DNA of 40,922 nt from Syntrophobacteraceae bacterium (GCA_013314815.1 JABUEY010000020.1:1-40922); one strand, 5' to 3'; shown: positions 18,741 to 36,158, counted from the first letter of the stretch. Numbers and translations: made by a program. Notes: generated from the letters alone by a model not told the origin.

Positions 18741-20294
18741 TCATTCCCACTCGATGGTGCTCGGCGGCTTGGAAGATATATCGTACACCACCCGGTTGAC
18801 GCCCTTTACCTCGTTGATGATTCGATTCGATATGCGCTGAAGGACTTCGTAGGGAAGCCTGGCCCAATCAGCCGTCATGGCATCCACACTCTCGACGGCC
18901 CGCAGAGCCACCACCTGCTCGTAGGTGCGTTCATCCCCCATGACTCCCACGGACCGCACGGGCAGAAGAACCGCAAATGCCTGCCACACATGCTCGTACC
19001 ACCCCGACGCCTCGATCTCCTCGAGTATGATGCTGTCGGCTTCTCTGAGGATCTCCAGGTTTTCGGCGGTCACATCCCCTATAAGCCTGATGGCCAGCCC
19101 GGGCCCGGGAAACGGATGGCGCATGATGATGCGCTCGGGCAGTCCCAGTTCTCTGCCCACGAGCCGCACCTCGTCCTTGAACAGTTCTCGCAGAGGTTCG
19201 ATCAGGCGCAGTTTCATCCTCTCGGGAAGGCCGCCCACGTTATGATGAGTCTTGATGGTGGCCGATGGCCCTTTAAAGGAGACGCTTTCGATCACGTCGG
19301 GATAGAGAGTCCCCTGGGCGAGGTACCTGGCGTCGGCGAGTCGAGCGGCCTCCTGCTCGAACAGCTCGACGAACAGGTTCCCAATGATCTTGCGCTTGCT
19401 CTCGGGGTCTTTCACTCCACGAAGGCGTTCGAGAAAAATATTGGAGGCATCCACGTAGATCAGGTCGATTTCAAAATGATCCGAGAAGATCCTGCGCACA
19501 CTCTCCGCCTCTCCCTTGCGCAGCAGGCCGTTGTTGACAAAGATGCAGTGCAGCTGAGGGCCGATGGCCTTGTGCAGGAGCACGGCGACGACGGACGAGT
19601 CGACTCCTCCGCTGAGTGCGCAGATGACATGATCGCTCCCCACACGCTCGCGCACGTTTTCGATGGTGGATTCCACAAAGGACTTCATGGTCCAGGTGGG
19701 CCGGCAGCGGCAGATGCGGAAGAGGAAATTTTCGAGGATGTCCTTTCCACAGGGTGTATGGGCCACCTCGGGATGGAACTGCACGCCGTAAAGATGGGCT
19801 TTGGGGTTTCCCATGGCCGCGACAGGAGAGTTGCCGCTGCGGGAGAGGACGGAAAAACCGGGAGGCAGCTCCAGGATGCGGTCGCCGTGGCTCATCCACA
19901 CACGCACTCCCTCCCGTTCCACATCCCGGAAAAGCTCGACGGGATTGTCGATATCCATGACTGCGGGACCGTATTCACGCCGGTCCGCCTTTTCTACTGT
20001 CCCGCCCAGTTGTTGAGCCATGAGCTGCATCCCATAACAGATGCCCAGGACGGGAACGCCCATGGTGAGCAGGGCGGGATCGGAGAAAGGCGCCCCTTCG
20101 TCATGGACACTCGATGGACCTCCCGATAGGACGATCCCCCTGGGTTCGAAGGCCCTGATGACTTCAAGGGCCAGGTTGTATGGGTGAATCTCGCAATACA
20201 CATGGCTTTCCCTGATTCGGCGGGCAATGAGCTGAGTATACTGCGATCCGAAATCCAGGATGAGGATGCGTTCTTCATGGAGGTGATCAAACAT
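18741..20294 (-). CDS. guaA: GMP synthase (glutamine-hydrolysing)
   Basis: GuaA converts XMP, glutamine and ATP to GMP. The 517-residue product has a class I glutamine amidotransferase domain with the triad C86 (VLGICYGMQ), H174 and E176 (QFHPEV). The ATP pyrophosphatase domain follows with the P-loop [10 protein letters not shown] (about 226-235). The C-terminal dimerisation domain holds [24 protein letters not shown] and the final KPPSTIEWE. The length is typical. The ATG at 20294 follows AAAGGAAAGAATCTGCC; a longer in-frame extension would run into guaB. It is 34 bases downstream of guaB, in one operon for the GMP branch. Confidence 0.97.
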
Positions 20295-20328
20295 GGCAGA
20301 TTCTTTCCTTTGGCCGTGCGGGTGCCCG

Positions 20329-21807
20329 TTACTTGAGATCCACCTGGTAATTGGGCGCTTCCTTCGTGATGATGACGTCGTGCACGTGACTTTCGCGAAG
20401 ACCTGCACTGGTGATGCGCACCATGCGCGCCTTGGACCGAAGCTCGTCGAGGGTCTTGCACCCCAGGTAGCCCATTCCGGCTCGAAGTCCGCCGATGAGC
20501 TGGTGAACGATGTCAGCGATGGGTCCCCTGTACGGGACCTTGCCCTCGATGCCTTCCGGGACCAGTTTCTTGGGTTCGAACACTTCGTCCTGGAAGTATC
20601 TGTCCTTGCTGCCTTCCTTCATGGCTCCCAGGGAGCCCATTCCACGATAAACCTTGTAGCTTCTGCCCTGGTAGAGAATGGTTTCACCGGGGCTTTCCTC
20701 CGTTCCGGCAAACAGGCCTCCGATCATCACGCAGTCGGCACCGGACGCAATGGCCTTGACCACGTCTCCGCTGTACTTGATTCCTCCATCGGCGATGACG
20801 GGGACTCCGAGCCTGCTGCAGATCCTGTAGCAATCCATGATGGCGGTGACCTGCGGCACGCCGACTCCGGCCACAATACGGGTGGTGCAGATGGACCCGG
20901 GGCCGACTCCCACCTTCACCGCGTCGGCACCGGCGTCGATAAGCCTTTGTGCGCCTGCCGCCGTCGCAACGTTTCCCGCAATGACCTGCAGATCGGGGAA
21001 CCGGGTCTTGATCTGCCTGACCGCCTCGATGATGTTCCTGGAATGGCCGTGAGCGCTGTCCACGGCGATGACGTCCACTCCCGCCGCCTTGAGTGCCGCC
21101 GCCCTGTCGGGAGTGTCCCTGCCGACGCCGACGGCGGCTCCCACGCGAAGTCTGCCGAGATGGTCCTTGCAGGAGTTGGGATATTTCTTGATCTTCATGA
21201 TGTCCTTGATGGTGATCAGCCCCTTGAGACGCCCCTGGTCGTCGACCACGAGCAGTTTCTCGATCCTTCTTTTTTGAAGCAGCTTCTTCGATTCTTCCAG
21301 CGAGATGCCCACACGGGCCGTCACCAGGTCGTCCTTGGTCATGACCTCGGAGACTTTGATGTTTTCGTCGGTTTCGAAACGCAGATCGCGGTTGGTGATA
21401 ATGCCGACGAGCCGGTCTCCCTTGACCACCGGTACGCCCGAGATGCGGTATCTGGCCATCAGGGCGAGCACATCGCCGATCTTCTGATCGGGTTCCACCG
21501 TGACCGGATCGACAATCATGCCACTTTCCGATTTCTTGACCTTGTTGACTTCCTGGGCCTGGCGCTCGATCGACATATTCCGGTGGATAATGCCTATCCC
21601 TCCCTCGCGGGCAATGCTGATCGCCGTCTCCGCCTCGGTGACCGTGTCCATCGCCGCGCTGGTAAGCGGGATTCTCATGGGTATATCCCTGGTGAGTCGC
21701 GTCGTGACGTCGGTTTCGTGGGGCAGAATGTCCGAGAAGTCCGGAAGCAGACTGATATCGTCAAAAGTCAGTGCCTCGGGTATAGCGTGATGCTGGATAT
21801 TGTCCAT
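20329..21807 (-). CDS. guaB: Inosine-5'-monophosphate dehydrogenase
   Basis: GuaB oxidises IMP to XMP with NAD+, the committed step to GMP. The 492-residue product has the barrel start [11 protein letters not shown] and a CBS-domain pair inserted at about residues 97-205. The active-site loop [11 protein letters not shown] holds catalytic C307. The substrate-binding block [19 protein letters not shown] and the flap region [10 protein letters not shown] are also present, with the Arg/Tyr region VPYRGPI. The length is normal. The ATG at 21807 has GGAG seven bases upstream. It is followed by guaA, and 57 bases upstream lies the end of a Ppx/GppA gene on the same strand. Confidence 0.97.
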
Positions 21808-21864
21808 CGAGTTTCTCCATTCTTGATTCTAATCATGGAAACTGCACATTGTGGGGCTTTACTC

Positions 21865-22896
21865 CTATTGGAACCGCCATGTCAAGGGGGTCAGCAGCCG
21901 GCGGGGCCGACCGAGACTTTTTTCAATAAGGTCGATGAGAAGGCCTTCCAGCAGTCCTGCGTCCGAAACGGTCAGGCGGTCTGTGCCCAGGCCCCTCAGT
22001 ATCTCCCGCACGATGAGGGCTCCTCCCAGGATGATGTCCTCGCGGCCCGCTTCAAGTCCGGGCAGGCTGCGGCGGGCTGCAACGGGAAGAGCCGCCAGGG
22101 CATGGATGGTTTCCGAGAGCCAGGGTTCGTGCAGGACCAGGCCGTTGACCCGGTTCGGCTCATATTCGCTCATCCTGAGAAAAAGGGCGGCAAGTGTGGT
22201 CACCGTCCCCGCCGTTCCCACGACAAGCAGGGGGCGATCCGCGTGTGTACTCTCTTTCCTGATCGACTTCAAGGCGGCAAATGTCGACTCGAGGGATTTC
22301 CGAACATCATCTTCCGCGCTTTTCAGGCTGAGTGCCGGAGGCGGCTCGAGATCGAAGTAAGACTGGGTGAGAGTCGCGGCTCCGACAAAGACGCTGGTTA
22401 CAAAGAGAGGTTCCGGACGTTCCGTGTCGACCAGGATGAACTCGGTGCTGCTGCCTCCCAGGTCGAAAGAAAGGAGAATCCTCTCGGGCGGGGGCTTGAG
22501 AACGCTGAGAATCCCTCTTGCCGAATGCAGGGCTTCTTCCTGTTCGGACAGGACGGAGATATCCAAGCCGGTTTCTTTTTTTGCGGAATCGAGAAACACG
22601 TCCCTGTTGCGGGCCTTCCTGACCACGCCCGTCGCTCCACACGAAACCCTGTTCACCCCGAGGTGCTCGACAAGAGAGGCATATTCCTTCAGTACCTCGA
22701 TGCCGGCCCGAATGCTTTCCTGCCGAAGCGTGTCGTCCTGTTGAAAATCCCGGGCCAGCCGCGTGATTCTGCGCTCGATCCGCAGGGGACGCATGTCGTG
22801 GTCGTTCTCGAGTCGTGCTGCAAGAAGCCGGATGGTGTGAGAGCCCACATCGATGGCCGCAAAGCCCGGGTCTGACCGGACGGAACTCAATTCCAT
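21865..22896 (-). CDS. Ppx/GppA family phosphatase
   Basis: The product (343 residues from 22896) is of the exopolyphosphatase/pppGpp phosphatase family, with the ASKHA-fold motifs FAAIDVGSHTIRLL (phosphate 1), LSFDLGGSSTEFIL (phosphate 2) and VVGTAGTVTTLAAL. It is the short form, lacking the C-terminal HD-like domain of E. coli Ppx. It could hydrolyse polyphosphate or (p)ppGpp. Start choice is unsure: the ATG at 22896 has AAGGAG only one base away, whereas a TTG at 22890 has the same site at seven bases, the better spacing. An ATG at 22974 has no site. It lies upstream of guaB on the same strand, which could link nucleotide alarmone turnover to GMP synthesis; this is inference. Confidence 0.88.
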   Translation of the reverse strand: MELSSVRSDPGFAAIDVGSHTIRLLAARLENDHDMRPLRIERRITRLARDFQQDDTLRQESIRAGIEVLKEYASLVEHLGVNRVSCGATGVVRKARNRDVFLDSAKKETGLDISVLSEQEEALHSARGILSVLKPPPERILLSFDLGGSSTEFILVDTERPEPLFVTSVFVGAATLTQSYFDLEPPPALSLKSAEDDVRKSLESTFAALKSIRKESTHADRPLLVVGTAGTVTTLAALFLRMSEYEPNRVNGLVLHEPWLSETIHALAALPVAARRSLPGLEAGREDIILGGALIVREILRGLGTDRLTVSDAGLLEGLLIDLIEKSLGRPRRLLTPLTWRFQ

Positions 22897-30010: not shown

Positions 30011-31135
30011 TCATCCCATGAGTCGCTTGAACAGCTTTTCAAATTCCCCTGCCATTCTGTTCACGGTCAAATTCTGAAGCACGAGGTTTCGAGCCTCCCT
30101 TCCCATCTTTTCCCGGAGGGCGGAGTCCTCGATCAGGAGGAGAAGTTTTTCCGCCAGATCGTCGGGATCGCCAACGTTTACCAGGAAACCGGTTCGACCG
30201 GGTATCACGATTTCATCCATGAATCCGACACGGCTGCAGACCTGTGGGATGCCTGCCGACATGGCTTCGATTACCGCAACCGAAAGGGTTTCCTGCCGGG
30301 GATAGGTGGACAGGACATGGATATCGACGGCGGCGAGAATATCCCCGAGCTGTCTCTGAAAACCAAGAAACCGCACATGGTTCGAGAGGCCGAATTCCGA
30401 GGCCATGTGTTCCAGCACCGGGCGTCGGGGGCCGTCTCCCAGCATCAGGAACACCGTGCCGGGAAACCTCCGGACGATGATCCTGGCTGCCTGCAGGAGG
30501 ATGTCGTGAGCCTTGTCCGGGCGGAGCACGGCTATCATGCTCACCACGTGCGCGTCGGGCGGGATTCCGAGTCGAAACCGGGCTTCCGAGCGGGACAGGT
30601 TTGTCTCGAATCTTGAAGGGTCCACAGCATTGTAGATGGTGGTCAGCTTGTCCGCGGGTACCTTTTCGACTGACGCCAGGTATTTCCGGTGCCCGTTGGA
30701 TGCGGCGACGACCTGATCCACGCCGACGTGGAGCAGGCGTCGGCCGAGCATGGTCGCCCCGTGGAAGGGATACCTTCTGAAAGTCTCGTTGTGCCAGTTC
30801 ACGATTGCTTTGACCCCCGCGATCCTGCCGGCGATCGTCCCGTAGAACAGGGTGTTCAGATGATTGACCAGAAGCAGGAGATCGGTTTTATCGCGGCGCA
30901 GAATGCCGGCCAGTCTTCGTATGCCCTTAATGTCGAATTTCGATCCGATGATGCGGCATTGGTGAGGGTATCCGAGTCTGAGGATTTCTTCCCCCAGCGG
31001 GCCGGGCTCCCGAAGAAACAGAACTCTGATCCGGAAGCGGCCGCTGTCGATGTGGCTCAAAAGTGCCAACAGGAGCTGCTCCGCTCCACCTATGGTGAGC
31101 TACGAGGTGAGTACGGCCAAGTGTATGCGCTCCAT
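30011..31135 (-). pseudogene. GT4 glycosyltransferase interrupted by an in-frame amber codon
   Basis: The frame starts at an ATG at 31135 with a strong site (AAAAGGAAG) upstream and reads MERIHLAVLTS, then TAG at 31102-31100. It continues without change of frame as LTIGGAEQLLLALL and 340 more residues. LTS-x-LTIGGAEQ is exactly the first glycine loop of GT4 enzymes, so the stop falls inside the conserved fold. The rest is intact: VNWHNETFRRYP, MIAVLRPDKAHDIL, FLMLGDGPRR, VRFLGFQ and the EAMSAGIPQVCSRVGFMDE donor-binding block. A frame without the stop can begin only at a TTG at 31069, without a ribosome site, losing the loop. It is a recent pseudogene, a sequencing error or a read-through gene. 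It follows a second glycosyltransferase. Confidence 0.8.
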
Positions 31136-31234
31136 GGGTTCTTCCTTTTCCATGTTGTCTCCATCTGTCCATTCGAAAGATCGGATGGGAGCAGCCGGAT
31201 CCGCCCGGCACCCGTCGTTTTCGACGTCTCGCGT

Positions 31235-32500
31235 TCACCGGCACCTGCTGTTCTCGATAACGGACCGGAACAAGTCCAGGAGTTGGCCGAGATGTTTTTC
31301 CATGGCATGACGGTCCAGGACAAATGCCCGCCCCGCCTCTCCCATCTTTCTCAGGCGCTGCCGGTCCGACGCCATCCATCTCAGGCCGTCGCACAGATCC
31401 GCTTCTGAATCGGGATCGAACAATCTTCCCGTAATGCCGTCCACGATCTGCTCGGGTGTTCCTCCGATGCGTGAGGCGAGAACCGGCGTTTCGAAGGACA
31501 TGCTTTCATAAATACTGATGGGTGCATTGTCGTACCATCGGCTCGGCACCACCGTGAAAAGAGCTTCTGCCACCCAGCGTGAGAATTCCTCCCCGGTCTT
31601 GAACCCTATGAAACGGATGCGGTCCTTCCATTCCGGACGTATCAGCTTTCGAAGTCTTTCTTCTTCGCCGTCGTAGCTTCTGCCCATGATCACGAGGTCT
31701 TCCGCGAGCATGGCTCGCTGGTACGCGCCGATGAGCGTGTCGAGTCCCTTTTCATAGGTTATGCGGCCAAAGTAAAGGATGTAGTTCTTTCTTGGAGATG
31801 CTGAGCTGTGACCGCTTGTAAAGACCGGATAAGGGATGAGGTGGATCCGTGATGGGGGAAATCCCGCCTGGACCAGTATGGATCCCATGAACAGGCACGG
31901 TACCACGAATGCATCGAGGTTTTGGTAAAGGCGGAGCAGTCTCTGGACGGTCATGGCTGCAACACGGACCGCTGAAGCCACTGTGCTGTTCTTGACGCAT
32001 CGATATCTCAGCCCATGATAATAAGAGCCTTTTACGCAGAGGGTGCAGGGCCTGCCGTTTCTGAGCAGTAGATAGGATGGGCAGACCAGATGGTAATCGC
32101 CGAGCTGGAGCACCACGGGTATGCGGTGATGCCTGAGGGTATGGACAATGCTCGGCGACATGTAATTGTATATGTTCAGCAGGTAGGCGATGTCCATCCG
32201 GCCGACATCGGCGATCAGTTTCGACAGGCGGACTCTCGCTTCCAGTGAATACACGGCCCGGTCAAGGTAGCGTATCCAGTTGAGCGCCCCGAGCCGGACA
32301 TTCCTGTAATGCATTTCGTCCGGGGAGCCGGGAGGCTGGAGAAAGTACCTGTTGTAAGGAGACTCCCAGCTATTGGAGTACCGGACGCTGAACGGGATCG
32401 GTTCATGCCCGTCGACGGGAAGCTGCCGCAGGAGATCCTGGAGGTATCTTTCCGTTCCCCCGTTGAGAAAGAAATACTTGTTGCACAGGAGTATTCTCAT
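31235..32500 (-). CDS. GT4-family glycosyltransferase
   Basis: The 421-residue product starts with ILLCNKYFFLNGGTERYLQDLL, the first glycine loop of GT4/GT-B enzymes. It carries a middle cysteine-rich stretch (GDYHLVCPSYLLLRNGRPC, CVKGSYYHGLRYRC). The C-terminal Rossmann domain has YILYFGRITYEKGLDTLI, IGFKTGEEFSRW, VVPSRWYDNAPISIYESMSF and TPVLASRIGGTPEQIV. GT4 enzymes transfer sugars from nucleotide donors to lipid-linked or surface polysaccharides; the substrate is unknown. The ATG at 32500 has AAGG eight bases upstream. It precedes the interrupted glycosyltransferase by 99 bases, so both probably served one surface-glycan pathway. Confidence 0.9.
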   Translation of the reverse strand: MRILLCNKYFFLNGGTERYLQDLLRQLPVDGHEPIPFSVRYSNSWESPYNRYFLQPPGSPDEMHYRNVRLGALNWIRYLDRAVYSLEARVRLSKLIADVGRMDIAYLLNIYNYMSPSIVHTLRHHRIPVVLQLGDYHLVCPSYLLLRNGRPCTLCVKGSYYHGLRYRCVKNSTVASAVRVAAMTVQRLLRLYQNLDAFVVPCLFMGSILVQAGFPPSRIHLIPYPVFTSGHSSASPRKNYILYFGRITYEKGLDTLIGAYQRAMLAEDLVIMGRSYDGEEERLRKLIRPEWKDRIRFIGFKTGEEFSRWVAEALFTVVPSRWYDNAPISIYESMSFETPVLASRIGGTPEQIVDGITGRLFDPDSEADLCDGLRWMASDRQRLRKMGEAGRAFVLDRHAMEKHLGQLLDLFRSVIENSRCR

Positions 32501-32922: not shown

Positions 32923-34404
32923 ATGGTCGAGTCCTATGACCTTGGCAGAATGCTGGAAGAGATCGCCGAAGACGAAAAGACGAATGTTTCGAGGGGCAGC
33001 CGTGTCACCCGGGACGAGCCTGAAACGGGGATGATAGAGAACCGGGAGACGTATGCTTTGAGGGGATTTAGGGGGCATCCGCCTGCCGGGGAACCATGGA
33101 TGGACGATCCTGGAGCACCCGGGCAGCTTCGAGATGTATCGAAAATGTTGCTGCAGGAGGGCGTTGAAGCTGGAATATCGCGTGTGGAAGCCGCGGGCAG
33201 TCCGGGAGCGCCGGGCCTGGATGACTGCAGCGATGCACAGGGAATACGCGGTGCCGATGCGATCGAGTTCGAGGCCTCGAGGAAGCCGGAGCCAAAGCCG
33301 GCAGTGATTTCGAGGGAGCTTCCTTCCGATGGCGGCGGTGGAGGAAGGGTCATGTCCCTTTGCGATCTTCTCGAAGATTCGTTCTTTCGCGAATCAACGG
33401 ATATTCTCATCGGCGAGGGGTTCCCGCCGGCCGTGAAGACACTCGGCGTGGTCAGGCGGTCCACCCTGCCGGCACTCACTTCCGCCCAGTGCGCGGCCTG
33501 TGCGAAAGGCCTGATGACCGAAGGGCAATGGGAGAGGTTTCTTGAAAAGAAGGAACTTGTTTTTTCCATCGACCTGGAAGACCTCGGGCGTTTCAGGGTC
33601 AGCGCGTACCGGCAGAGGAACACCGTTTCCATGGTCCTCAGGCACATCGCCGGCACAATCCCCACACTCGACCGTCTCGGCCTTCCCGGCTGGATCGAAG
33701 AAATCGCCCTTAAGCCGAAGGGGCTCATACTCGTCACTTCCCCCCCGGGCCACGGCAAGACCACCACCGCTGCTTCCCTGATCGACACCGTCAACCGGAA
33801 GAGGGAATGCCATATCATCACGGTTGAAGATCCGATGGAATATGTCGTCCGGCCCGAAAAGAGCATGATCAGCCAGAGGGAGGTCGGGACGGACACCGCT
33901 TCATTTTTCGAGGGGATTCGCGGGGTGTCGAAACAGGCATCGGATGTCGTCATGATCGGAGAACTGCGGGACCCGGGGACTATTGAAGCGGCCCTCGAAG
34001 CGGTTTGTTCGGGGTGCCTGGTTGTAGCCGCCACGGCTTCTTCCACGGTTGCTTCCGCCATCGAGAGCATGGTGAATCGCTTTCCCGTCCAGCGGCAGAC
34101 AGACGTGAGGCAGCGGATTTCCGAAAAGCTGCTGCTGGTCTTTTCTCAGAGGCTGGTTCCGGGGAAAGGGGCGGAGAGGGTGGTCGTTGCCTATGAAAGG
34201 CTGTTGAACAGCTCTAAAATCAGGAACCTGATCGTCGAAAACAGGCTGCGCGAGGTAACGACTCAAGTTCGAAGGGGCTCTGCAGACTATGAGTCCATCG
34301 ATCTGTGCCTGTCGAGTCTTGTCAGGGAAGGAAGAATCGACCTGGAGGATGCTCTCCGCTTTGCGGACAATTCGGAGTTCCTGGCTTCATCATCGGGGTG
34401 GTGA
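32923..34404 (+). CDS. Divergent PilT-like ATPase with long disordered N-terminal extension
   Basis: The 493-residue product is a PilT/PilU-family ATPase from about residue 143 on: MSLCDLLEDSFFRESTDILIGEG (family: SDLHL start), FRVSAYRQRNTVSMVLRHI, Walker A SPPGHGKT (273-280), Asp box VEDPMEYV (301-308) and Walker B DVVMIGELRDPGTIEAALEA (341-360). The first ~140 residues are hydrophilic, rich in Gly, Pro, Glu and Asp, and without family similarity. Walker A reads PPGHGKT rather than TGSGKST, and the His box (normally GTLHT) reads AATASS (369-374), so its histidine is lost. It overlaps or abuts a second divergent ATPase gene. Retraction motor activity is doubtful. The ATG at 32923 has AGGAG ten bases upstream. 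Confidence 0.82.
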   Translation: MVESYDLGRMLEEIAEDEKTNVSRGSRVTRDEPETGMIENRETYALRGFRGHPPAGEPWMDDPGAPGQLRDVSKMLLQEGVEAGISRVEAAGSPGAPGLDDCSDAQGIRGADAIEFEASRKPEPKPAVISRELPSDGGGGGRVMSLCDLLEDSFFRESTDILIGEGFPPAVKTLGVVRRSTLPALTSAQCAACAKGLMTEGQWERFLEKKELVFSIDLEDLGRFRVSAYRQRNTVSMVLRHIAGTIPTLDRLGLPGWIEEIALKPKGLILVTSPPGHGKTTTAASLIDTVNRKRECHIITVEDPMEYVVRPEKSMISQREVGTDTASFFEGIRGVSKQASDVVMIGELRDPGTIEAALEAVCSGCLVVAATASSTVASAIESMVNRFPVQRQTDVRQRISEKLLLVFSQRLVPGKGAERVVVAYERLLNSSKIRNLIVENRLREVTTQVRRGSADYESIDLCLSSLVREGRIDLEDALRFADNSEFLASSSGW

Positions 34405-34436
34405 CAGGGGTGCGGATCCCTGTGATCGAGGACGGG

Positions 34437-36158
34437 ATGTCGATTTCAAGGCGGGCTGTCATGACCAAGAACACGTTGTTTATGCAGATGCTGGTTTCGA
34501 GGGGAATAGTCGGCGAGGAGTCGGCGGAGATGCTCGACGAGAAATATGGGGAGGACACCTTCGCCGTCTTGATGCACCTCGTCCGGGCGGGTGTGGCGGA
34601 CAGGACATTGCTGGGAAGAATGTGGGCCGATTCCAACGGAACGGACTACGTGGATCTTGGATCCGTCATGCGCCGGGGCGAAATTGTCCGGCGATTGCCC
34701 GAATCCTTCGCCGCAAGACACCACATTCTCCTGATGCACCGGTCGGGCAGCAGCATTGTCGCGGCGCTTTCGAACCCGACGGACCCGGATGTGATCAGGC
34801 AGGCCGAGGACATTGCGGCGAGTTCCATCCAGCCGGCGTTCGCCTTTCCCGAGGAGATCGAAGAGGCGATCGAGATTGAATACAGGTCGGAAGAGCAGTT
34901 GGCGGATCTGTCCAGGAAAATTGTCACGGAGACCCTGCCCATCGATGACATCGGTGAACTCACCCGGGAGCAGCTCCACAAGGTTGCCGGGACTCAGGCT
35001 GTTGTCGGTTTCGTGCAGACTCTTCTACTGCTCGGTCTGCGTGATCGGGCCGGCGAAATACACATCGAACCGGCGGACGAGAAGATTCGAGTGCGGTTTC
35101 GGATCGATGGCATGCTGCAGGATCGCTGCCGGATGGAGAAGATTCATTTTGTCCCCGTCATCGCAAGGTTGAAGATCCTGGCCGACCTCGACATCGCCGA
35201 ACGGAATGCGGTCCAGTATGGGCGGGTGAACCTGAAACTTCCGACCCGGACGGTTGCTTTCAGGCTCTGCAGCGTACCCTCGGTGTGGGGAGAAAGAGTG
35301 GTGCTGCGCATCGAGGGGCAGCCGGTGACAGGAGATGTCCCGGACCTGTACGGCCCGTCCTTTGCCGGCTCCATTCGGGATACTCTGAAGAATATTTTCG
35401 AGGCTCCACAAGGGATCTTCCTGGTGACCGGCCCTGCCGGGTCGGGCAAGGGCTCTGCGCTTCTCGCCGTGATCGATCACCTGAAAAAAGCGGGATTGAG
35501 CATTACCGCCATCGAAGATGCCATCGAATACAGGGTCGACGGTATCACACGAATCCGGCCGGACAAGGCGGCGGGATTCGATTTCATCACTGCGTTGAAA
35601 TCGTGCATATGGCAGGATTCCGAGGTCATCGTCGTGGGGAATGCAGGTGATGAAGAGAAGGCGAAAGCCGTGTTCCAGGCCGCCTTGACGGGGCGTCTCC
35701 TTCTTGCGACGCTCGACGCGGGCAATGCGGCTCAGGCTGTGGCGAGGATTCTGGATATGGGCGTCAAACCCGTGGTGCTGGCCTCATCCCTGCTGGGAAT
35801 CCTGTCCCAGAAGCTCGTACGCAGAATCTGCGAAAGATGCAGGGAGGAATATGCTGCATCGGAGGAAGAAATGGAGAACCTGTTCAGGGGGCATGGGAAA
35901 GAAGCCCGCTTTTACAGGGGCAGGGGATGCAGATCCTGCAACTTTACCGGGTATTGCGGGACGATTGCCGTTCATGAAATCCTGTGCCCCGACGAAAAGA
36001 TGCGGAGCATGATCGCTCGAGGGGATTCCATGTACGACGTGTATGAACATGCCGGGAAGTCGGGGTTCCAGACCATGCGATATGACGGCCTGAAGAAGGT
36101 GCTGCGCGGTCTCACCACGCTGGACGAGATAAACCGGGCTGTGAATTCCGGGGGGTGA
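34437..36158 (+). CDS. Divergent PilB/GspE-like ATPase
   Basis: Counting from the ATG at 34437 the product has 573 residues. It has an MshEN/GspE N-terminal domain (~15-150), then EIHIEPADEKIRVRFRIDG (207-225), Walker A GPAGSGKG (332-339), Asp box IEDAIEYRV (359-367) and a zinc-type four-cysteine set (C465, C468, C498, C501). Several invariant residues are changed. The Walker A Thr is Gly, the Walker B GEIRD is GNAGD (401-405, so the catalytic Glu is lost), and the His box TLHT is TLDA (425-428). It is probably a weak or inactive ATPase, or a scaffold. A GTG at 34401 overlapping the previous stop (GTGA) is an alternative start. It forms a two-gene unit with the PilT-like gene. Confidence 0.83.
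   Translation: MSISRRAVMTKNTLFMQMLVSRGIVGEESAEMLDEKYGEDTFAVLMHLVRAGVADRTLLGRMWADSNGTDYVDLGSVMRRGEIVRRLPESFAARHHILLMHRSGSSIVAALSNPTDPDVIRQAEDIAASSIQPAFAFPEEIEEAIEIEYRSEEQLADLSRKIVTETLPIDDIGELTREQLHKVAGTQAVVGFVQTLLLLGLRDRAGEIHIEPADEKIRVRFRIDGMLQDRCRMEKIHFVPVIARLKILADLDIAERNAVQYGRVNLKLPTRTVAFRLCSVPSVWGERVVLRIEGQPVTGDVPDLYGPSFAGSIRDTLKNIFEAPQGIFLVTGPAGSGKGSALLAVIDHLKKAGLSITAIEDAIEYRVDGITRIRPDKAAGFDFITALKSCIWQDSEVIVVGNAGDEEKAKAVFQAALTGRLLLATLDAGNAAQAVARILDMGVKPVVLASSLLGILSQKLVRRICERCREEYAASEEEMENLFRGHGKEARFYRGRGCRSCNFTGYCGTIAVHEILCPDEKMRSMIARGDSMYDVYEHAGKSGFQTMRYDGLKKVLRGLTTLDEINRAVNSGG

Follow-up and report, generated by a model that had tools for sequence, protein, structure and literature searches.

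A PilT-like and PilB-like ATPase Pair Left from an ODP-Linked Five-Gene Operon in a Syntrophobacteraceae Genome, and Its Possible Retention as a Non-catalytic Regulator of the Type IV Pilus

Introduction

Type IV pilus motors are tuned by cyclic di-GMP (c-di-GMP), PilZ/FimX, and inhibitor peptides. PilU acts through PilT (PMC6762196), and Acinetobacter TfpB is a second, phylogenetically distinct PilB extension motor that acts in trans (PMC8213720). In Myxococcus xanthus, a PilB deficient in ATPase activity assembles no pili but still signals (PMC5544727). The oxygen sensor ODP serves chemotaxis; a receptor homologue to which it is genetically coupled modulates CheA (PMC7666581). The word "oxygen" is absent from a 2024 review on PilB cofactors (PMC11656802). 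Herein, we analyze a PilT-like protein (P0001) and a PilB/GspE-like protein (P0002) encoded by neighboring genes in a 40,922-nucleotide stretch of DNA from Syntrophobacteraceae bacterium (GCA_013314815.1 JABUEY010000020.1:1-40922), referred to below as the window. The two genes stood at either end of a five-gene operon, and the three genes once between them have been lost. We infer, with a probability of roughly 0.6, that they persist as a non-catalytic pair acting on the canonical pilus machine of the cell.

Results

The gene pair was compared with 25 other Syntrophobacteraceae genomes, the family assignment following from the named relatives Desulfoferrobacter suflitae DRH4 and Desulforhabdus sp. 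TSK. Orthologues of both ATPases were found in eight of them, and in all eight they form the ends of one five-gene run with the order MshEN-PilT-like protein, ODP, histidine kinase (HK), single-domain CheY-like response regulator (RR), and PilB-like protein. Pfam matches to these operon genes were ODP PF19583 (149 bits), HisKA-HATPase_c, Response_reg, and MshEN-T2SSE, and the ODP matches the solved oxygen-binding diiron proteins PDB 6qrq/6qnm. In both genomes of the genus Desulforhabdus (G007, G015), the operon lies between rpoS and mgtE, the exact site of the window pair, and rpoS is directly upstream of the operon in G003 and G012 also. An ATG at 34461, in register with all orthologues, is the most likely start of P0002; the intergenic gap in the window is therefore ~57 bp. 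In the trees, P0002 is nested in the operon clade (99/100) and P0001 falls inside its own operon clade (100/100). The window pair represents the two outer genes of the five-gene operon after loss of the three middle genes. An orphan gene pair was also considered and was rejected, since the pair derives from this operon.

The absence of the ODP, HK, and RR genes could in principle reflect an assembly error, the source genome being a draft of 245 contigs. However, both reading frames flanking the junction end and begin cleanly, and a search of the whole assembly, which is 97.7% complete, found no ODP gene anywhere. The match to the cassette kinase elsewhere in the assembly reaches only 45% and lies inside a larger 664-aa frame, and the loss of PilB-like motifs is independent of the junction. 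Such an error is extremely improbable.

The first-pass annotation had looked to conservation, apart from the canonical pilB and pilT loci, of adjacent pairs in which the same residues are altered. Separate conservation was borne out, as the genes occur in eight of the 25 genomes and form clades of their own, but the side-by-side arrangement with shared alterations fails because all eight relatives have three signaling genes between the ATPases and intact PilB-like motifs. With the PilB-like motor intact in 8/8 relatives, its loss is therefore specific to the window lineage. The catalytic residues of HK and RR are intact in every one of the eight operons.

P0002 gave 384 bits against TIGR02533 (GspE/PilB) and matched Pfam T2SSE and MshEN, with scores far under the GspE and PilB equivalog cutoffs (TIGR02533, TIGR02538). 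A T2SSE fold with an N-terminal N1D/MshEN domain and a zinc site is present, and the predicted structure (predicted local distance difference test, pLDDT, 78), with Thermus PilF and Geobacter PilB as its closest solved structures, confirms the fold only. Compared with the canonical motifs, P0002 carries GPAGSGKGS for GPTGSGKTT, IEDAIEY for IEDPVEY, IWQDSE for LRQDPD, GNAGD for GEIRD, and GRLLLATLDA for GHLVLATLHT. Where active motors have the Walker B Glu of GEIRD and the His box GH..TLHT, P0002 thus has GNAGD and GR..TLDA. Walker B has lost its catalytic Glu, the His box both histidines, Walker A its Thr, and the pocket its arginines, and the P-loop Lys is retained. P0002 was said to keep its Asp box and zinc site; the four cysteines and the acidic residues of the Asp box are indeed there, but the Asp-box Pro is lost (EDP to EDA). 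At columns invariant in 23 other PilB/GspE proteins, P0002 is changed at 31 of 92, as against 0-2 in any other protein, a difference beyond chance. Judged by these alignments, P0002 has lost the residues required for ATP hydrolysis and can hardly serve as a motor in the source genome.

P0001 gave 314.2 bits (E 1e-93) against TIGR01420 (PilT/PilU), narrowly below the curated cutoff of 319.1, and matched PilT structures in the structure search. Its motifs are Walker A SPPGHGKTTT, Asp box EDPMEY, and Walker B GELRD, with AATASS at the position of the His box. The GHGK sequence, which the first-pass annotation had listed among the alterations, is usual in MshEN-PilT proteins, and its His as a sign of an aberrant P-loop was rejected on that ground. 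The earlier view that both proteins had lost catalytic residues applies to P0002 with its many losses, but for P0001 it extends to the His box and not to the Walker A Lys, the Asp box, or Walker B. Because these three are intact, P0001 may still bind ATP. The N-terminal MshEN domain, a feature of operon PilT-like proteins, is present in 6/8 orthologues, partly lost in G009/G016, and lost in P0001. The structure model of P0001 (pLDDT 54, and below 50 for residues 1-143) is too weak for use. An N-terminal peptide, YDLGRMLEEIAEDEK, is retained in all nine Syntrophobacteraceae orthologues, including those lacking MshEN, with L7, E13, I14, and E16-K19 invariant. This peptide is a possible docking peptide. 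The positions of all features are collected in Table 1.

Table 1. Features of the ATPase Pair, in Window Coordinates
Feature	Position	Strand	Basis or remark
PilT-like protein P0001, MshEN-PilT subfamily, 493 aa	32923..34404	+	MshEN domain and His box lost; family and structure searches
Conserved N-terminal peptide YDLGRMLEEIAEDEK of P0001	32935..32979	+	alignment of orthologues
Low-complexity stretch of P0001 where the MshEN domain would be	33100..33345	+	alignment; low-confidence model
Walker A SPPGHGKTTT of P0001, Lys and Thr kept	33739..33768	+	alignment
Walker B GELRD of P0001, intact	33958..33972	+	alignment
AATASS, lost His box of P0001	34027..34044	+	alignment
Junction of ~57 bp, in the place of the ODP, HK, and RR genes (~2.4 kb) of relatives	34405..34460	+	synteny
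PilB/GspE-like protein P0002, 565 aa, N1D/MshEN-like domain and degenerate T2SSE ATPase	34461..36158	+	family, alignment, and structure searches
Walker A GPAGSGKGS of P0002, T to G after Lys	35430..35456	+	alignment
Walker B GNAGD of P0002, catalytic Glu and Arg lost	35637..35651	+	alignment
His box GRLLLATLDAG of P0002, both His lost	35691..35723	+	alignment
Four-cysteine zinc site of P0002, C457/C460/C490/C493, kept	35829..35939	+	alignment

The same searches confirmed both open reading frames as the neighboring PilT-like and PilB/GspE-like genes of the + strand that had been described at the outset. If the pair were instead a pilus or secretion motor that works with unusual catalytic residues, this would account for the motifs that remain, namely Walker A, the Asp box, and Walker B in the PilT-like protein and the P-loop Lys and zinc site in the PilB-like protein. 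However, P0002 has lost the Glu of Walker B, both histidines of the His box, the Thr of Walker A, and the pocket arginines all together, with no replacement candidate, which makes such a motor very improbable.

The His box of the PilT-like protein is already altered in the eight relatives, from STTHS (G010) to ACVQA or AAFEA, and some of these proteins lack part of MshEN or the C-terminal domain. This points to an old, family-wide drift of the PilT-like protein. There are two layers of loss. In the first, shared by the family, the sensor and the PilT-like protein drifted, with the relay and the PilB motor remaining orthodox. In the second, confined to the window lineage, the sensor, kinase, and regulator genes have gone, together with MshEN from the PilT-like protein and the catalytic residues from the PilB-like protein.

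The pair could alternatively be in ongoing decay: once the sensor genes were lost, the ATPases would be useless and would be drifting toward pseudogenes, still open by luck or recency. The deletion of the middle genes, the loss of MshEN from the PilT-like protein, and the fast branches of both proteins in the trees would all fit; the end branch of P0002 carries 1.03 changes per site, against 0.04-0.37 in other operon members. The intact PilB-like motifs of all eight relatives point the same way, as the first-pass annotation had reasoned, but tests of frame, conservation, and domain rate oppose plain neutral decay. Across its 565 codons, P0002 has zero gaps and zero stops and a normal codon-position pattern, even though it carries 73 private changes among 238 columns that are invariant in the rest. 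In a neutral simulation, the probability of finding no stop was ~0.01 at 20% and ≤0.002 at 30% changed residues. The private changes are also more conservative than neutral (P 0.005). The extra log-distance of P0002 was 0.49 (0.35-0.66) in the catalytic C-terminal domain, 0.33 in N2D, 0.13 in N1D, and 0.12 in the zinc/C-terminal region, the interval being a bootstrap over columns only, and two control lineages had no such pattern. Uniform neutral decay predicts equal extra divergence in all regions, and the catalytic domain shows about fourfold that of N1D or the zinc/C-terminal region; the constraint on the engine was lifted, and that on the putative partner-binding parts was kept.

Several observations weigh against retention. 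The window lineage is represented by a single genome of its genus. Codon positions 1 and 2 of P0002 have drifted toward GC relative to the orthologues, as relaxed constraint predicts, and this drift points to real relaxation in P0002. Change is also seen at 18 of the 64 deep invariants that lie beyond the ATP motifs, and the excess in the motifs is not significant (p = 0.07, Fisher), although the comparison of domain rates gave a significant result. The drift of the PilT-like protein, with MshEN lost here and the C-terminal domain lost in others, can be read as family-wide decay. On balance, the frame and selection tests favor a P0002 that has probably been retained in a non-catalytic form over simple decay, which we regard as unlikely, though it is the alternative to be taken most seriously.

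A wider scan with the ODP alignment, in which 80 loci were kept, extended the operon beyond the family. Nine loci carry the same kinase, regulator, and PilB-like gene beside ODP, without a PilT-like gene. Their hosts are Nitrospirae/Thermodesulfovibrionales, Desulfobacteraceae, other proteobacterial metagenome-assembled genomes (MAGs), and one Thiorhodovibrio MAG. PilB motifs are intact wherever the PilB gene is complete, two of the nine (L098, L130) being cut by contig ends. One locus is rearranged to RR-PilB-ODP-HK, and the four genes therefore stay together despite rearrangement. In the tree, the cassette PilB-like proteins group with those of the Syntrophobacteraceae operons in one clade (100/100), separate from the family's canonical PilB and GspE. 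Inspection of the listed flanking frames of the cassettes, without a family scan, revealed no recognizable pilin or platform gene. Six presumed di-iron ligand positions, assigned by alignment with ODP sequences and not by structure, are all kept in 9/9 PilB cassettes and 20/20 SpoIIE-type loci, versus 0/8 Syntrophobacteraceae operons (0-4 kept); the sole exception, among the other loci, is the G015 operon entered twice. We found no description of an ODP-HK-RR-PilB cassette in the literature on ODP, PilB, oxygen sensing, and type IV pili, of which coverage was partial, with subscription papers mostly outside it.

Other ODP contexts were observed in the same scan. About 20 ODP genes directly precede a SpoIIE/PP2C-type phosphatase, a second ODP output module (L099, L101-L103, L106, L109, L111-L116, L118, L123, L124, L126, L131, L134, L143, L170). 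In G010, the N-terminal region of an ODP-linked SpoIIE-type phosphatase resembles that of the operon histidine kinase (35% over 65 aa). Close ODP relatives also occur, in other contexts, in magnetotactic lineages (Magnetococcales and Magnetospirillum relatives; L136, L138-L140, L142, L147, L148, L150, L152, L157, L160, L161, L164, L167), and L164 has a PilT-like gene 2.3 kb upstream.

A phylum search recovered full-length MshEN-PilT proteins from 27 other genomes. All four motifs are present in eighteen, and the second His is replaced in two. The remaining seven belong to one family and are degenerate: Walker A reads SARGQGKDTT or a near variant (SPGGHGKGST in one), Walker B has no Glu, and the His box is absent. 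The seven form one well-supported clade; catalytic loss in the MshEN-PilT subfamily therefore arose and was kept elsewhere, independently. We also rejected the idea that MshEN-PilT proteins elsewhere belong to the ODP cassette, as the other Desulfobacterota loci examined have no nearby ODP or cassette PilB; one of them adjoins a secretion-type GspE. Around the degenerate pseudo-ATPases (L196-L202; contexts L213-L218), several genomes have ATP-synthase c-subunit-like, HAMP-type sensor, and rnf-like genes nearby.

The canonical pilus loci of the source genome are a tandem pilT pair (contig C18), pilB-pilC (C50), and pilM (C73), and a type II secretion E-F locus (C107) and a Tad-type locus (C1) are also present. 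Canonical pilus/secretion ATPase motifs are intact where checked. With this machine elsewhere in the genome, the window pair is therefore additional to the normal pilus machine, and the earlier suggestion that it acts away from other pilus genes is supported.

Between rpoS and the pilT-like gene, the window holds two glycosyltransferase genes (30011-32500, - strand), absent there in the syntenic relatives. The first-pass annotation had linked the ATPases to these surface-glycan genes, and a PilB-type signal to exopolysaccharide production, like that of the ATPase-deficient Myxococcus PilB, could be imagined, as the glycosyltransferases are upstream of the pair and a hydrolysis-deficient PilB can signal for exopolysaccharide (PMC5544727). 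However, the glycosyltransferases are on the opposite strand and occur at this site only in the window, with rpoS directly upstream of the operon in the four same-site relatives, and no gene of an exopolysaccharide signaling pathway was noticed nearby. The proposed link was not upheld, and a role of this kind is very doubtful. Elsewhere in the window, an 860-codon open frame (20293-22875) without a Pfam match is antisense to long frames beside guaA and is probably a mere long antisense frame in GC-rich coding DNA.

Discussion

The operon and cassettes suggest how the pair may have arisen. In other phyla, the core cassette would use ODP as a di-iron oxygen or redox sensor that drives the kinase and regulator, and these would govern a PilB-type extension motor dedicated to the cassette, which would serve the main type IV pilus in trans. 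Syntrophobacteraceae would have gained a c-di-GMP-type MshEN-PilT while their ODP lost its iron ligands, and the input has probably changed as a result. In the window lineage, the signaling genes would then have been lost and the PilB-like protein would have ceased to be a motor. Deprived of sensor input and of hydrolysis, the pair may now bind the canonical machine, most likely its PilB-PilC, PilT, or PilM, and act there as a competitor, adaptor, or signaling protein.

The broader proposal is held more tentatively, at somewhat less than even odds: ODP-HK-RR-PilB would be an undescribed, phylum-spanning cassette running from an oxygen or iron sensor to a pilus motor, converted in Syntrophobacteraceae, with the window holding its end point, a hydrolysis-dead pair kept to regulate the canonical pilus. 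With the ODP sensor, kinase, receiver, and PilB motor encoded together, such an operon would link oxygen or iron directly to pilus extension. The window offers a natural series from an intact motor to a hydrolysis-dead protein, in addition to an independent MshEN-PilT clade without catalysis. This series is useful for asking what role such ATPases have when they are not motors.

Both proteins are members of known families. P0001 resembles PilT/PilU (TIGR01420) in its fold, Walker A and B, Asp box, and a C-terminal RNLI.E-like motif, but it scores below the cutoff, has lost the His box, and lies away from the canonical pilT pair, and most of its orthologues carry an N-terminal MshEN. P0002 shares the N1D-N2D-CTD layout (CTD, C-terminal domain) and the zinc site of PilB/GspE/MshE (TIGR02533, TIGR02538); unlike them, it has no hydrolysis residues, and its clade is shared with the ODP cassettes. 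The chemotaxis ODP belongs to the same protein family as the middle gene of the relatives' operon, whereas the relatives' ODP adjoins an orthodox histidine kinase, a CheY-like regulator, and PilB, has lost its ligands in Syntrophobacteraceae, and is absent from the window. Acinetobacter TfpB differs in being an active motor, with no ODP-HK-RR partners described. The M. xanthus PilB provides the likeness of a regulatory role without ATPase activity; there the protein is a mutant of the canonical pilB, whereas here it is a natural paralogue.

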